A DNA stretch of 64,000 nt from Myxococcota bacterium (GTDB lineage Bacteria; Myxococcota_A; Bradymonadia; UBA7976; UBA1532), in the NCBI GenBank assembly GCA_963169045.1, contig CAUJDF010000038.1, forward strand, positions 1 through 64,000, read 5' to 3'. The translations under genes were made by a program, and so were the position numbers. Position 1 is the stretch's first letter. The number at the start of each line of letters is the position of its first letter. Of this stretch, positions 24,719 through 32,459 are shown piece by piece. The notes beneath the pieces were generated by a model that saw nothing but the letters and a program-made list of their open reading frames with translations, searched no databases and had not been told where the DNA came from.

Positions 24719-26695
24719 CTACCGGTCGGCGAGCCGGTTCCAGAGCCAGGCGAGGGCGTTGGTGTCGGGCAGGTCCATCGAGAGGCGGACGTGCTGGCCG
24801 GCGCGCAGGGCGCCGTCCGGGTTGGGGACGCGCGCCTCGAGCGTGAAGGCGCCGTCGGCGTCGGCGACGGGCGAGGTGCCGCCGAGGGCGATGTCGAGCC
24901 GGCGGTCGGGGAAACCCTCGGGCGTGAGCACGGCGCGGTCGCGCCCCTCGACGGCGCCGAGCCAGGCGCCGGGCACGCGGGCGCGCAGGTGCAGGCGCGA
25001 GAGGTCGGCGATGACGAAGAGCGACTCGCCACGGGTGACGGCCTGGCCCTCGCGGGGCGCAGGATCGGCGACGAGCACGCCGCTGGCCGGCGCCGTCACC
25101 TGGACGCGCAGGCGGCCTTCGAGCGCGGCGCGCCGGCGGAGCACGTCCTCGAGCTTCGCGACGGCGCCGGCGTCGGGCGCCGTGCTGACGACGCGGCGGC
25201 GGCTGCGCGCAGCCTCGGCCTCGCGGCGGAGCGCGTCGGCCCGGACGCGCGCCGTCTGCACCGCGCGGCGCGCCGTCTCGAGCGCGTCGATGGTGGCGCG
25301 GCGCTCGTTGAACTCCTGGTCACGCAGACGCTCGACCTGGGACGCGTTCTTGACCTCGGTCTCGGCGTCCTCGATCTGGCGCAGCACCGACGGGGGCACC
25401 TCGCCCTCGACCACCTGCGTCTTGCCGAGCAACCGGCCCTCGAGGCCCCGCTCCTCGGCGGCGAGACGGTCGAGCTCGGCCTGCACCTCGAGGTCGGCGA
25501 CCCAGGCCACGGGATCGCCGGCCACGACCTTGTCCCCGGGCCGGAAGTAGACCTTCTCGAGCCGCCCGCGGACCGGGCTGGGCAGCGGTCGCTCCTCGCC
25601 GGCGGCGAGCACGCCCGACAGCTCGAGCGTCCGCGGCACCGGCACCAGCGCCGCCGCGCCGGCCATCGCGCCGATCACGAGCGGCGGCGCGACCCAGCGC
25701 AGCCAGCGCCGCTTCTTGCGCGCGCGCTTCGCCGGCACCAGACGCCGCGGCACCTCCGGGTGGATCGTCGGCTCGCGGCGCGTCGTCAGCTCCGGCGGAT
25801 CCGTGGGCGCCAGCAGCACCTCCGCCGGCGGCCGCGTGTCGGCGACCGTGGAGTCGTCGAGGCGCTGTCGCAGCGCGCGCATCTGGTCCGACGACATCTG
25901 CACCGCGGGGTTCGCGCCGCGCAGGCCCGGCGCCTCGCCGACGAGCAGCGTGCCGGCGCCGCGCGGGATCTCCTCGAGCAGGCCGGAGTCCTCGGTGACG
26001 CGCAGCAGGATCTCGTGCGGGCCGATCCGCAGGCGGTCACCGAGCCGCGCCGGCACGACCCCGCGGACCCGCTGGTCGTTCAGCCATGTCTCGGCGCCGG
26101 TCTTCAGCGTGGCCACGAACACGAGGTCGCGACCGTAGGCGTCGATGCGCGCGTGCTGCGGCGCCACGCCGACGCCCTGCAGGTTCACGCCGCAGTTCAG
26201 GCGCCCGATCGTCGTCGAGGCGCCGAACGCCGGGATCGTCTTGCCGGCGTTGGGGCCGTCGACGAAGTCGAGGACGAGCTGCACCGGGCTGCGCCGGTCG
26301 CTGAGCAGGAAGCGGATGTCGGTGGCGCCGAACCGCAGCACATCGCCGTGCCGCAGGCCGGCCTCGCGCACCGGCTCGTCGTTGAGCAGCGTGCCGTTGG
26401 TGCTGCCGAGGTCGCGCAGGAGCAGCTCGTGCTCGCCGGCGGCGATGCACGCGTGGCGGGCCGAGATCGAGGCGTCCGCCAGCACGATGTCGCAGCCCGG
26501 CGCCCGCCCCAGCGTGAAGTAGCGCCCGCCGGCGAAGCTGCGGGGCGTCAGCGCGTACCACGAGATGCGACCGCTCGGGTCGAACACGTACAGGTTGGCG
26601 CGGTAGGCGCCGCCGGGCAGCGCGACGTCGGTGATCGACGCGTCGTCGCCCAGGTCGCGCGGCAGGGGCAGCTGTTCTCCGGACTGCACCGACAA
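24719..26695 (-). CDS. Double FHA domain protein fused to a membrane HlyD-like adaptor
   Basis: This encodes 658 residues. Two forkhead-associated domains lie at about 60-130 (GR, SARH, STNGT all present) and 160-232 (second copy diverged, with GRLNCGV and QHARID). FHA domains bind phosphothreonine. A basic linker and one transmembrane helix (about 331-350, WLRWVAPPLVIGAMAGAAAL) follow. A membrane-fusion-protein domain occupies about 355-648, with lipoyl halves (SPVRGRLEKVYFRPGDKV; APASGVLVADPAPREGQ) around an alpha-hairpin. The FHA part should be cytoplasmic and the HlyD part periplasmic. No transporter partner is adjacent. The fusion suggests an export or envelope complex assembled under Ser/Thr-kinase control. 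Confidence 0.85.
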   Translation of the reverse strand: MSVQSGEQLPLPRDLGDDASITDVALPGGAYRANLYVFDPSGRISWYALTPRSFAGGRYFTLGRAPGCDIVLADASISARHACIAAGEHELLLRDLGSTNGTLLNDEPVREAGLRHGDVLRFGATDIRFLLSDRRSPVQLVLDFVDGPNAGKTIPAFGASTTIGRLNCGVNLQGVGVAPQHARIDAYGRDLVFVATLKTGAETWLNDQRVRGVVPARLGDRLRIGPHEILLRVTEDSGLLEEIPRGAGTLLVGEAPGLRGANPAVQMSSDQMRALRQRLDDSTVADTRPPAEVLLAPTDPPELTTRREPTIHPEVPRRLVPAKRARKKRRWLRWVAPPLVIGAMAGAAALVPVPRTLELSGVLAAGEERPLPSPVRGRLEKVYFRPGDKVVAGDPVAWVADLEVQAELDRLAAEERGLEGRLLGKTQVVEGEVPPSVLRQIEDAETEVKNASQVERLRDQEFNERRATIDALETARRAVQTARVRADALRREAEAARSRRRVVSTAPDAGAVAKLEDVLRRRAALEGRLRVQVTAPASGVLVADPAPREGQAVTRGESLFVIADLSRLHLRARVPGAWLGAVEGRDRAVLTPEGFPDRRLDIALGGTSPVADADGAFTLEARVPNPDGALRAGQHVRLSMDLPDTNALAWLWNRLADR

Positions 26696-26817: not shown

Positions 26818-27552
26818 ATGTCGAACCGCGAAGACTGGGATTTCTATCTGACCCGGGTCGGTGAGCGTCCCGCCGCGATCTTCTGCGACCTCGCCGCCGA
26901 TCCCGATCCGGAGCGGCCTCTGCGCCTGCGGGTCCGGGTGAGGCTCCAGTTTCCGCGGCCCGAGGACGGGCTCGCCAGCGCCGACGAGTCGGCGGGGCTC
27001 AACGCCGTCGAGGACGCGCTCGTGGAGCGCCTCGCCGAGGCCGGCACGCGCTACGTGGGCCGCTGGACGTGCGACGGCTTCCGAGAGTTCGTCTTCTACG
27101 CGCCCGAGGACGCCCCCTTCGAGCAGGGCCTGCGGGCGGTCGCCGAGGCCTTCCCCGACTACCGCCCGACGACCGAGGTCAGCGAGGACGCGGGCTGGGA
27201 CATGTTCCGCGAGCTGCTGTTGCCCGGCCGCTGGGAGCTGCAGTGGATCCTCGACCGGCGCGTGGTCACCAATCTGCGCGAGGCTGGCGACGAGAACGAC
27301 CTGCCGCGCCCGGTCGACCACTACGCCTACTTCTCCGACACGGGCGCGCGCGACGCCTTCATGCGCGAAGCGCGCGCGCTCGGCTTCGCGGTCGAGGTCA
27401 CGCTCGGGCGCGTCGGCGCGCACCTCGTGCGCCACGATCCGGTCGACCTCGAGCACATCCACGGCGTCGTCTGCGAGCTCATCGACCTCGTCGACCGCCA
27501 CGGCGGCGATTACGACGGATGGGGCGCCCCCGTCGTCCGCACCATCGGGTGA
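26818..27552 (+). CDS. DUF695 plus RraB-like domain protein
   Basis: This encodes 244 residues. The N-terminal half (WDFYLTRVGERPAAIFCDL) matches DUF695 and the C-terminal half (HYAYFSDTGARDAFMREARALGF, shortened here) matches the ribonuclease E inhibitor RraB domain. Proteins with this pair are widespread and of unknown role; direct RNase E control is not implied by the domain alone. Cytoplasmic, no signal peptide. Confidence 0.8.
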   Translation: MSNREDWDFYLTRVGERPAAIFCDLAADPDPERPLRLRVRVRLQFPRPEDGLASADESAGLNAVEDALVERLAEAGTRYVGRWTCDGFREFVFYAPEDAPFEQGLRAVAEAFPDYRPTTEVSEDAGWDMFRELLLPGRWELQWILDRRVVTNLREAGDENDLPRPVDHYAYFSDTGARDAFMREARALGFAVEVTLGRVGAHLVRHDPVDLEHIHGVVCELIDLVDRHGGDYDGWGAPVVRTIG

Positions 27553-29323: not shown

Positions 29324-29545
29324 GAGGATCCTCCGCAGCTTCCAACCACCACAGGACGCCCCGTTCTCCCGGAAAGCCGCGTCTCGATCAACGTTCGCCG
29401 GTGTCAAGCGCACGCGACACCTGGCGGGGATTGTCGGCCACCGTTGACACGGGTGGCGGCCACGGGCCGCGTCACAGCGTGTCGCCCGGGTGGCACACAT
29501 GGTGCAAAATCTTGATTCAGACGGACGCAGTGGGGGGGTTAACCC
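29324..29545. other. Intergenic region upstream of the Cys-repeat lipoprotein
   Basis: A 222-bp region that is less GC-rich than its neighbours. It contains a sigma-54-like site at 29491-29506 (listed separately) and an isolated TTGACA at 29444-29449 without a convincing -10 partner. Confidence 0.5.
29491..29506 (+). promoter_or_regulatory. Sigma-54-type promoter for the Cys-repeat lipoprotein
   Basis: TGGCACACATGGTGCA matches the -24/-12 consensus TGGCACG-N4-TTGCA except at two positions, with the GG and GC dinucleotides exactly 10 bp apart. Transcription would start about 12 nt downstream, near 29517, ahead of the ATG at 29546. An enhancer-binding activator would be needed. Confidence 0.55.
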
Positions 29546-31279
29546 ATGGGCCAGCAGCAATCCCGTCGTGCCTTCCGGTGGGGCGCGACTTTGTTCTTCA
29601 TCGGCCTGAGCGCCTGCGGGGCGCCCGAGCCTGACGACGGCGTCGGCGAAGAGGCCACCGACGTCGAGAGCATCGTCAGCGAGCTCGGAGGCGAGTGCCG
29701 CGCGGCGTGCGCCGAGCGCCTGCATGCGATCGCCGAGCGCTGTCGCGACGAGGGCGTCGAGCCCCGGCGCTGTCACGTGCGCCTCGCCGAGGCCCGCGAG
29801 CGCTGTGCCGAGGCCTGCGAGGTGCGCGAGCCACGGCGCCATCCGCCGCGCGGGTGCGCGGCCCGTTGCGAGGTCCAGGCGCACCACGACCTCCGCGCCT
29901 GCATCGCCGACGGCGGCGAGGCGGCCGACTGCGCGCAGGCCGCCCGCGAAGGCGCGCAGGCCTGCCGTGAAGAGCGCTGCGACGACCGCCCCGAGCGCCC
30001 GCGCTGCGAGGAGAGCTGCGCCGCCCGGGCTCGCGCCGTGACCGCGCAGTGCATCGAGAACGGCGGCGACGAGCGCGCCTGCCGCCGCCGCGGCGAGGCG
30101 TTCGGCCGCCAGTGCGCCGAGGATCACTGCGCGCCGCCCCGGAACGACCGCGGCGAGTGCGCCGACCGCTGCGGCGCCGAGGGCCGCGAGATCGAGCGCG
30201 AGTGCCGCGAGGCCGGCCACGACGGGCGCGCCTGCCGCGAGCGCGCGGCTCGATTCGTCGCCGGCTGCATCGCCGATCGCTGCGAGCGTCCCCAGCCCCC
30301 GCCGCCGCCCCCGGCCGACCGGTGCGAGGACGCCTGCGCCGAGCGCGCCCGCGCCATCGGCGCCCGCTGCCTCGAGGAAGGCGGCAGCCGCGAGCGCTGC
30401 GCGGCCCACGCCCGCGAGTTCGCCGGCGCTTGCGTCGCCGAGCACTGCGACGGCGGCGAAGAGCCCCCGCCGCCCGCCTGTCAGGAGCGCTGCGGCGCCG
30501 AGGGCCGCCGCATCCACGCCGAGTGCCTCGAGGCCGGCGGCGCCGAGGAGCGCTGCTCCGCCCGCGCCCGCGAGTTCGTCGGCGCTTGCGTCGCCGAGCA
30601 CTGCGACGGCGGCGAGCAGCCCCCGCCCGAGCCGCCTGTTTGCGAGGAGCGCTGCGGCGCCGAGGGCCGCCGCATCCACGCGGCCTGCGTCGAGGCGGGC
30701 AACGACGCCGAGGCGTGCGCCGCCCGCGCCCGCCACTTCGTCGAGGAGTGCACCGCGCGCTGCGGCGGCGAGGAGCCCCCGCCCCCGCCGCCCGAGGAGC
30801 CGAGCTGCGAGGACCGCTGCGCCCGCGAGGGTCGCGTCGCGTACGAGCAGTGCGTCGCCGCCGGCCACGGCGATGACGCCTGCGCCCGCCGCGCCCGCGA
30901 GGTGACCGCCGCGTGCGCCCGGAACAACTGCGGCGGCGGCGAGCAGCCCCCGCCCCCGCCGCCCGAGGAGCCGAGCTGCGAGGACCGCTGCGCCGCCGCC
31001 ACCGAGGCGTTCCTCCGCGAGTGCATCGCTGCGGGCAACGCCGCGGACCGCTGCCGCGCCGCCGCCGCCGAGCGCCAGCGCGCCTGCGCCGCCAGCTGCG
31101 ACCGCGAGCCGCCCCCGCCGCCGCCCGAGGAAGGCCCGACCTGCGCCGACCGCTGCGAGATCACCGCGAACGAGGTGTTCCGCATCTGCGTCGAGCGCAC
31201 CCGTGACGAGGTCGCCTGCCGCGAGCAGCGCGCGCGCTCCATCCGCGCCTGCATCGCCGAGCGCTGCCAGCAGCCCTGA
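29546..31279 (+). CDS. Lipoprotein with ten six-cysteine helical repeats
   Basis: This encodes 577 residues. A signal with twin Arg and the lipobox IGLSACGA precedes ten repeats of about 44-55 residues including linkers. Each repeat follows C-x3-C-x10-C-x9-C-x10-C-x(3,4)-C, for example starting RCEDACAERARAIGARC. The spacing suggests a helical hairpin stapled by disulfides. Repeats 4 to 10 are separated by Pro-rich linkers (PPPPPP, PPPEPP). Later repeats are nearly identical (GAEGRRIHA occurs twice), indicating recent duplication. An extended, rigid, disulfide-rich surface fibre is plausible; function unknown. A sigma-54-like promoter lies upstream. Confidence 0.85.
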   Translation: MGQQQSRRAFRWGATLFFIGLSACGAPEPDDGVGEEATDVESIVSELGGECRAACAERLHAIAERCRDEGVEPRRCHVRLAEARERCAEACEVREPRRHPPRGCAARCEVQAHHDLRACIADGGEAADCAQAAREGAQACREERCDDRPERPRCEESCAARARAVTAQCIENGGDERACRRRGEAFGRQCAEDHCAPPRNDRGECADRCGAEGREIERECREAGHDGRACRERAARFVAGCIADRCERPQPPPPPPADRCEDACAERARAIGARCLEEGGSRERCAAHAREFAGACVAEHCDGGEEPPPPACQERCGAEGRRIHAECLEAGGAEERCSARAREFVGACVAEHCDGGEQPPPEPPVCEERCGAEGRRIHAACVEAGNDAEACAARARHFVEECTARCGGEEPPPPPPEEPSCEDRCAREGRVAYEQCVAAGHGDDACARRAREVTAACARNNCGGGEQPPPPPPEEPSCEDRCAAATEAFLRECIAAGNAADRCRAAAAERQRACAASCDREPPPPPPEEGPTCADRCEITANEVFRICVERTRDEVACREQRARSIRACIAERCQQP

Positions 31280-31367: not shown

Positions 31368-32459
31368 ATGAGCCAGGAGAAGCTGGCGAAGCTGCGCGCG
31401 CAGATCGGCGCCATCGACGACGGCTACCAGGTGCAGTTCGCGGGACATCCGCGGATCACCCGCGACCCGACGCTGCTCGACCGCATGGCGACCGACGTCG
31501 GCCGCGCCATCGAGGCGCTCGGCGCGCTGCCCGCCTCGCCCGACCGCGACGCGCTGCTGAACGACGCGCGCTCGCGCCTCGACCTGTACCGCAACGAGGC
31601 CGTCGCGGTCCGCGACGCCCAGGCCGGCGGACAGGACGCGCTCGAGGCGCACTACCTCGGCGAGTGGTCCCGCTTCGTCTTCCACCGCTACCGGCGGCAC
31701 TTCGCCGGCCAGTCGCGAGCCACGCGCGACCTCGGCGTGCTCGCCGAGATGATCGCCGACCTGCGCCGCATCAAGGCCGAGGCCGAGGCGCTCAAGAAGC
31801 GCCGCGGCGACCCGGGCCTCGGCGACACGATCGAGCGCGTCGACCGCAACCTGCAGCTCTACCTCGACGAACGCGGCGAGATCGTCAGCTCGCGCGGCGA
31901 GGGCACCCTCGAGCAGCAGGCCGACGTCCTCGCCGCCGTCGCCAACGACCAGTTCGCGCTCTACGCCCGCCACTTCGCCGGCAAGTCGCGCCTCTCGCGC
32001 CGCCCGGCGCTGCTCCAGCGCATCATCGACAACCTCGACGTCATCAAGGACCGCATGATCGTGGTGCGCGACGGCGGGCTCGGCGACGGCAGCCACACGA
32101 AGAACATCGAGATCGTCGAGAGCCGCGCCACCTTCTACCGCGGAGAGCTCGACGCCATCCGCAAGGTGCGGCGCGAGGCGAGCATGCCGGATCTCGTGGG
32201 CGCCCTCGGCACGGCGGCGAACGAGCTGTTCGCGGAGTACCAGGAGCACTTCGCCGGCAAGGACCGCCGCACGCGCGACGTCGCGCGTCTCACGCAGCTC
32301 TGCGACGCGCTCGAGGAGATCGGCCGGCAGATGGACGAGATCGACCGCGCCCGTCCCGACGAGACCAACGCCGCGAACCTGCACATCGTGCTCGACACGC
32401 TGCGCCTGTACGTGCGCGAGTACGACGCGGTCCGCGAGGCCCAGACGCAGAATGCCTGA
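31368..32459 (+). CDS. Cytoplasmic protein of four FAG-R repeats, unknown family
   Basis: This encodes 363 residues with no signal peptide. Four repeats of about 85-90 residues each begin with a block like YxxHFAGxxRxTRDxxLLxxM (FAGHPRITRD, FAGQSRATRD, FAGKSRLSRR, FAGKDRRTRD), followed by two or three predicted amphipathic helices and a closing LxLYxxE segment. The start at 31368 begins just before the first repeat. The family was not recognised. Its last codons overlap the acylphosphatase start by 8 bp, so the two are translationally coupled. Confidence 0.8.
   Translation: MSQEKLAKLRAQIGAIDDGYQVQFAGHPRITRDPTLLDRMATDVGRAIEALGALPASPDRDALLNDARSRLDLYRNEAVAVRDAQAGGQDALEAHYLGEWSRFVFHRYRRHFAGQSRATRDLGVLAEMIADLRRIKAEAEALKKRRGDPGLGDTIERVDRNLQLYLDERGEIVSSRGEGTLEQQADVLAAVANDQFALYARHFAGKSRLSRRPALLQRIIDNLDVIKDRMIVVRDGGLGDGSHTKNIEIVESRATFYRGELDAIRKVRREASMPDLVGALGTAANELFAEYQEHFAGKDRRTRDVARLTQLCDALEEIGRQMDEIDRARPDETNAANLHIVLDTLRLYVREYDAVREAQTQNA

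Follow-up and report, generated by a model that had tools for sequence, protein, structure and literature searches.

Positions 29546..31279 (+) of the window, the whole 64,000-nucleotide stretch of DNA analysed here, carry a gene whose product is probably a sigma-54-induced, lipid-anchored surface string of ten disulfide-stapled hairpins, acting as a multivalent tether or display array. In each repeat of about 42 residues, two antiparallel helices would be stapled into a hairpin by three nested disulfides, two of them (C1-C6 and C2-C5) placed along the helices and the third (C3-C4) beside the turn; flexible Pro/Glu/Gly spacers would join the ten beads, and the lipid at the N-terminus would hold them at the cell surface. 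As judged by sequence searches, the hairpin repeat is a family without a model in the libraries searched (Pfam, NCBIfam, PHROG and PDB sequences).

Repeat array and lipid anchor

Features of the window were as follows.

29491..29506 (+), sigma-54-type -24/-12 element TGGCACACATGGTGCA, an exact match to TGGCAC-N6-TGCA 39 bp before the ATG
29546..31279 (+), hairpin-array lipoprotein gene, 577 aa, with ATG at 29546 and the stop ending at 31279
29546..29617 (+), lipoprotein signal peptide with lipobox L-S-A-C24, by inspection and pattern
29696..29818 (+), hairpin repeat 1 (sequence)
29855..29980 (+), hairpin repeat 2 (sequence)
30005..30130 (+), hairpin repeat 3 (sequence; helix-loop-helix in the AlphaFold2 model)
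30158..30283 (+), hairpin repeat 4 (sequence; helix-loop-helix in the AlphaFold2 model)
30323..30448 (+), hairpin repeat 5 (sequence)
30479..30604 (+), hairpin repeat 6 (sequence)
30641..30763 (+), hairpin repeat 7 (sequence)
30806..30931 (+), hairpin repeat 8 (sequence; helix-loop-helix in the AlphaFold2 model)
30932..30976 (+), Pro-rich spacer GGGEQPPPPPPEEPS (sequence; non-helical and of low confidence in the model)
30977..31099 (+), hairpin repeat 9 (sequence; helix-loop-helix in the AlphaFold2 model)
31142..31267 (+), hairpin repeat 10 (sequence)
31368..32459 (+), downstream gene with four HFAGK-type repeats, no Pfam family

Long antisense frames are also present in the DNA of the window (about 74% G+C), which gives the coding test its weight; the array frame was taken as coding because G+C at codon positions 1/2/3 was 0.80/0.64/0.94 and homologous frames occur in other genomes. 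The protein contains 61 cysteines, C24 of the lipobox and 60 in the repeats. Gaps between the repeat cysteines were 3, 10, 9, 10 and 3 or 4 in 10/10 repeats without exception, giving C-x3-C-x10-C-x9-C-x10-C-x(3,4)-C, and in 5000 shuffles of the protein this motif occurred a mean of 0.0004 times, against ten observed. With all 60 cysteines in register, the ten tandem repeats of fixed spacing described in the initial annotation were confirmed; the spacers, which it also described as Pro-rich, are clearly so beginning with repeat 4, and the three before that (EVREPRRHPPRG, DDRPERPR and APPRNDRGE) are only mildly Pro-rich. The protein ends with repeat 10 and has no distal domain.

The near-identical copies reported earlier were not found in the window. 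The closest pairs, 6/7 and 5/6, shared 67% and 62% of their amino acids and 75% and 76% of their nucleotides, respectively, and mean amino acid identity among the ten repeats was 37%. An array that is still expanding, as had been proposed, is not supported by the window copies, although relatives show recent duplications; in genome G008, from the same family, the neighbouring repeats 3 and 4 are nearly identical, with one difference in 44 residues.

Of 18 homologous genes with a located start, 17 had a lipobox (LSAC24 in the window), which upholds the lipid anchor noted earlier. The signal peptide of the array protein also contains a Tat-like SRRAF motif; none of the 17 further homologs checked, of which 16 have a lipobox, shares it. 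As the motif was unique to the window copy, the Tat route was set aside. Judged from the signal alone, the protein would be exported, lipid-anchored and placed on the outer membrane or cell surface.

Relatives, predicted fold and disulfide pairing

The hairpin module was found in at least 23 of 377 sampled Myxococcota genomes (profile search, E 1e-4, with at most 19 candidates scored per genome), in 1-10 tandem copies and nearly always in lipoproteins; a first contig scan, queried with the whole array protein, found no relatives. Other architectures in the phylum include Ser-Asp-rich tails and a secreted protein, L063, in which two hairpins are combined with Kazal inhibitor domains; low-complexity, stalk-like stretches in relatives consist of Ser-Asp or Pro-Glu. 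The only clear lipoprotein paralog in the host genome lies on contig C102 and has 278 aa, counted from its ATG, with three hairpins; in addition, contig C14 encodes a large secreted protein with two hairpins at its C-terminus, and protein L018 of contig C103 ends in a single motif match. In G008 and G012, both of the same family as the host, arrays with (PE)n spacers in place of polyproline adjoin the same downstream gene. The module had no match in phage and plasmid collections, and with sampling that covered these and the 377 genomes of the phylum, its range may extend beyond Myxococcota.

Lipoproteins L143 (G008, contig C161) and L144 (G012, contig C58) consist of four-cysteine C-x10-C ... 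C-x10-C hairpins without C1 and C6, separated by Pro-Glu or Gly-Asp-Trp spacers, and are predicted to represent a sister, two-disulfide form of the module. Repeats of L024 (G011, contig C16) start with C-x2-C and may be a further subtype with a shifted helix register.

AlphaFold2 was run on residues 126-247 from single sequence and on repeats 8-9 aligned with the window's own repeat pairs. A helix-turn-helix was predicted in each modelled repeat (3, 4, 8 and 9), with helix pLDDT mostly 91-98. The spacers had pLDDT of about 63-70 and the two models pTM of 0.56 and 0.45, so that the mutual orientation of the hairpins is undefined, as for beads on a string; these values speak against the rigid surface fibre suggested originally.

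Among homologs, the C3-C4 loop had lengths of 5, 8, 9, 10, 11, 12 and 16, while the gaps C1-C2, C2-C3, C4-C5 and C5-C6 were fixed at 3, 10, 10 and 3/4. Since only the C3-C4 gap varies much and the helix-side gaps do not, C3-C4 was assigned to the turn. The positions of the paired cysteines sum to a constant (5+37, 16+26 and 1+41 all give 42, and 1+42 gives 43 in copies with an extra residue), a pattern expected where residues face each other across an antiparallel hairpin; it supports nested pairing. The same face of the hairpin carries small residues (positions 9 and 30) and hydrophobic ones (12/13 and 33/34).

Cysteines were then counted in 116 repeats, of which 84 had all six and 23 lacked exactly C1 and C6. 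The correlation between C1 and C6 was phi = 0.87 (Fisher p about 8e-20, a value that overstates independence, as repeats within a gene are related); the next highest, C2/C5, was phi 0.50 from few cases, and C3 and C4 were invariant. These repeats were gathered with a six-cysteine profile, and the co-loss cases are not independent events: the 14 of the 23 that were listed came from six genes (L062, L064, L027, L051, L011 and L034). The remaining patterns were mostly shifted (C-x2-C or C-x5-C) rather than unpaired. In the C102 paralog, repeats 1 and 3 have six cysteines and repeat 2 lacks C1 and C6. Co-loss of C1/C6, variation confined to the loop and constant position sums together argue for nested C1-C6, C2-C5 and C3-C4 disulfides. 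The disulfide-stapled helical hairpin put forward in the initial annotation is thus supported, as a predicted fold and pairing, by structure prediction and by co-loss, and the cysteines would be in the oxidised state. Four VKOR-family disulfide-forming genes were present in the host genome.

Putative sigma-54 promoter and proposed role

The element upstream of the array gene has the GG and GC dinucleotides at sigma-54 spacing, with two departures from the extended consensus TGGCAC-N5-TTGCA (G7 to A and T12 to G), and rpoN is present in the host genome. Exact TGGCAC-N6-TGCA sites numbered 13 in the 9.0 Mb genome, against 38 for the reversed-pattern control; as the sites are fewer than in the control, base composition does not make the motif common. 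An exact site also lies 50 bp before the start of the C102 paralog, and the chance of finding two of 13 sites within 100 bp upstream of the array gene and its paralog was about 1e-8. The same element stands 51-81 bp before the hairpin lipoprotein genes L048, L142 (G008) and L049 (G012). It was not found before the G012 array gene or before more distant members, and at the G008 array gene the contig ends. For most of the 13 sites, a same-strand open frame begins 25-100 bp downstream.

The genes behind the 13 sites (L126-L138), named by inspection, include many for lipoproteins or secreted proteins, among them an astacin-like protease lipoprotein (L129), together with genes for a Ser/Thr kinase, a universal stress protein (L131) and a RIC/YtfE-like protein (L128); a FlgD-like gene (L132) lies farther from its site, at 173 bp.

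The promoter match suggests that the array gene is transcribed via sigma-54 and encodes a condition-specific surface protein. A comparative study has proposed that sigma-54 mainly controls the bacterial exterior (PMC3162934), and reading the array gene as one for a surface protein fits that proposal.

The downstream gene, which has a FAG[KQH]xRxTR-type motif in each of its four repeats, is a core gene of the class (42 of 57 genomes). Its named relatives are from Myxococcota, including Lujinxingia (Bradymonadales), and place the group in this phylum. Among orthologs whose flanks were read, it adjoins a hairpin array only in G000, G008 and G012 (genera g1 and g9). A functional link between the two was rejected, as this is a core gene and the other orthologs read have no hairpin neighbour; it is probably an accidental neighbour of the array. 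Other neighbours are ordinary chromosomal genes, namely a divergent NAD-dependent epimerase, ALA dehydratase, Fur, Ppx/GppA, glycine-cleavage P-protein, HypD and HypF. Elsewhere in the window, 26818-27549 (+) encodes a DUF695 domain fused to an RraB-like domain (regulator of ribonuclease activity), and 24722-26695 (-) encodes FHA domains (Pfam matches to FHA and to a T3SS inner-membrane cytoplasmic domain) joined to an HlyD-type membrane-fusion segment.

In the scheme favoured here, the sigma-54 promoter would restrict production of the array protein to conditions in which an enhancer-binding activator has been switched on. The array would then form a tough, protease-resistant and extended tether or display, the similar hairpins of which could contact the matrix, other cells or prey multivalently. 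Contact or tethering would be the most likely function and is the least certain step. The wider proposal, that Myxococcota use an undescribed three-disulfide alpha-hairpin domain in modular arrays for surface contact under sigma-54 control, for instance with prey or kin, and with copy number and spacers varying by lineage, is possible but rather doubtful.

Several other explanations were weighed against a tether or display array. That the protein is a passive rigid stalk or fibre, which only distances the protein end from the membrane, we regard as unlikely: it is repetitive, lipid-anchored and Pro-rich, and the stalk-like Ser-Asp and Pro-Glu stretches of its relatives would suit such a part, but the array has no distal domain to hold out, and its spacers are flexible in the models, leaving relative orientation undefined. 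Somewhat less probable still is a tandem array of protease inhibitors or defence peptides, in which the hairpins block proteases or attack membranes and the lipid keeps them at the surface. This would agree with a scaffold type shared with alpha-hairpinins, several of which are trypsin inhibitors (PMC7191063), with the joining of two hairpins to Kazal domains in L063, and with the astacin-like secreted protease (named by inspection) behind another sigma-54 site of the genome. However, the loop, in which the reactive site of an inhibitor would be expected to vary, is structural rather than hypervariable, with Gly20 in 50 of 65 aligned repeats and acidic residues at 22-24, and it has no conserved P1 residue; nor are there obvious cleavage sites between the hairpins, and the family has no conserved surface charge.

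A rod for storage or binding of metal (copper or zinc), with reduced cysteines lining the helices as in copper-storage proteins, had been offered originally as an alternative to the fibre and is very improbable. Its attractions are the 60 cysteines, some arranged as C-x3-C pairs along helices, and the SRRAF motif, through which a protein already folded, reduced and loaded with metal could be exported. Against it, paired loss of cysteines across the helices and non-Tat signals in the 17 other homologs point to oxidised cystines, the genome encodes VKOR-type oxidases, His and Met are conserved at no position, and no metal-storage genes are found in the neighbourhood.

Comparison with known hairpin and cysteine-rich systems

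The array protein had no match in Pfam, NCBIfam or PHROG, even at E 10, and the PDB sequence search returned none with either the protein or a profile of 24 repeats. When 24 single repeats were compared with Pfam, two weakly matched the CX9C model (PF16860), the better at E 0.0027, which falls short of significance over 24 queries; one touched Ole_e_6 (E 0.013) and one Hefutoxin (E 0.84), neither significantly. Single repeats gave only noise in NCBIfam, and the Pfam Tim10/DDP model matched neither the array protein nor its repeats. Comparison of the hairpin models with the PDB by Foldseek and VIA-align returned generic helical bundles and designed repeats, with a best Z of 5.8, which is below the informative level for helical models. 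The earlier view that the repeat stands outside named families therefore holds in these libraries, which at present miss it, and a testable disulfide topology can be derived purely from sequence. The module is a compact and presumably very stable scaffold, and its tie to sigma-54 control in one Myxococcota family offers a handle on the function of that regulon.

Ole e 6, a pollen allergen, and the hefutoxin scorpion toxins are small cystine-stapled helical proteins. They differ from the array in being single-domain eukaryotic proteins, and with matches below any cut-off the resemblance is probably convergent. The EGF-like repeats of the Myxococcus TraA type are Cys-rich repeats on myxobacterial surface proteins, but they have a different motif with shorter spacing, and NCBIfam models did not match the array.

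The array protein works like an alpha-hairpinin or a CHCH hairpin and is a member of neither, as it departs from both defining spacings. Like CHCH or twin CX9C proteins (PF16860; Cox17 and other Mia40 substrates), it is predicted to have an antiparallel helical hairpin in which the four inner cysteines are nested. All copies have C-x10-C ... C-x10-C, however, instead of C-x9-C, and they have six cysteines and occur in bacterial lipoproteins rather than in proteins of the mitochondrial intermembrane space. The small Tim chaperones (twin CX3C) also have C-x3-C on both antiparallel helices, whereas the array adds a C3-C4 pair, has another intervening length and is in tandem on one chain.

Plant alpha-hairpinins are helix-loop-helix peptides with nested cysteine pairs, made from precursors with as many as 12 motifs in tandem, and several inhibit trypsin (PMC7191063). 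They and the vicilin-derived precursors resemble the array in the nested-disulfide helix-turn-helix (predicted here), in C-x3-C pairs and in the tandem arrangement after a signal peptide. They differ from the array in having four cysteines and shorter helices and in lacking both the third, turn-side disulfide and a lipid anchor, and their precursors are cleaved. Relative to their C-x3-C-xn-C-x3-C pattern (pairs 1-4 and 2-3), the outer four cysteines of the array repeat are similar, with 31 residues and two cysteines between them; no sequence relation was detectable in the PDB profile search. Fixed helices, a free loop and the paired loss of one disulfide parallel both alpha-hairpinins and CHCH proteins, likely by convergence.
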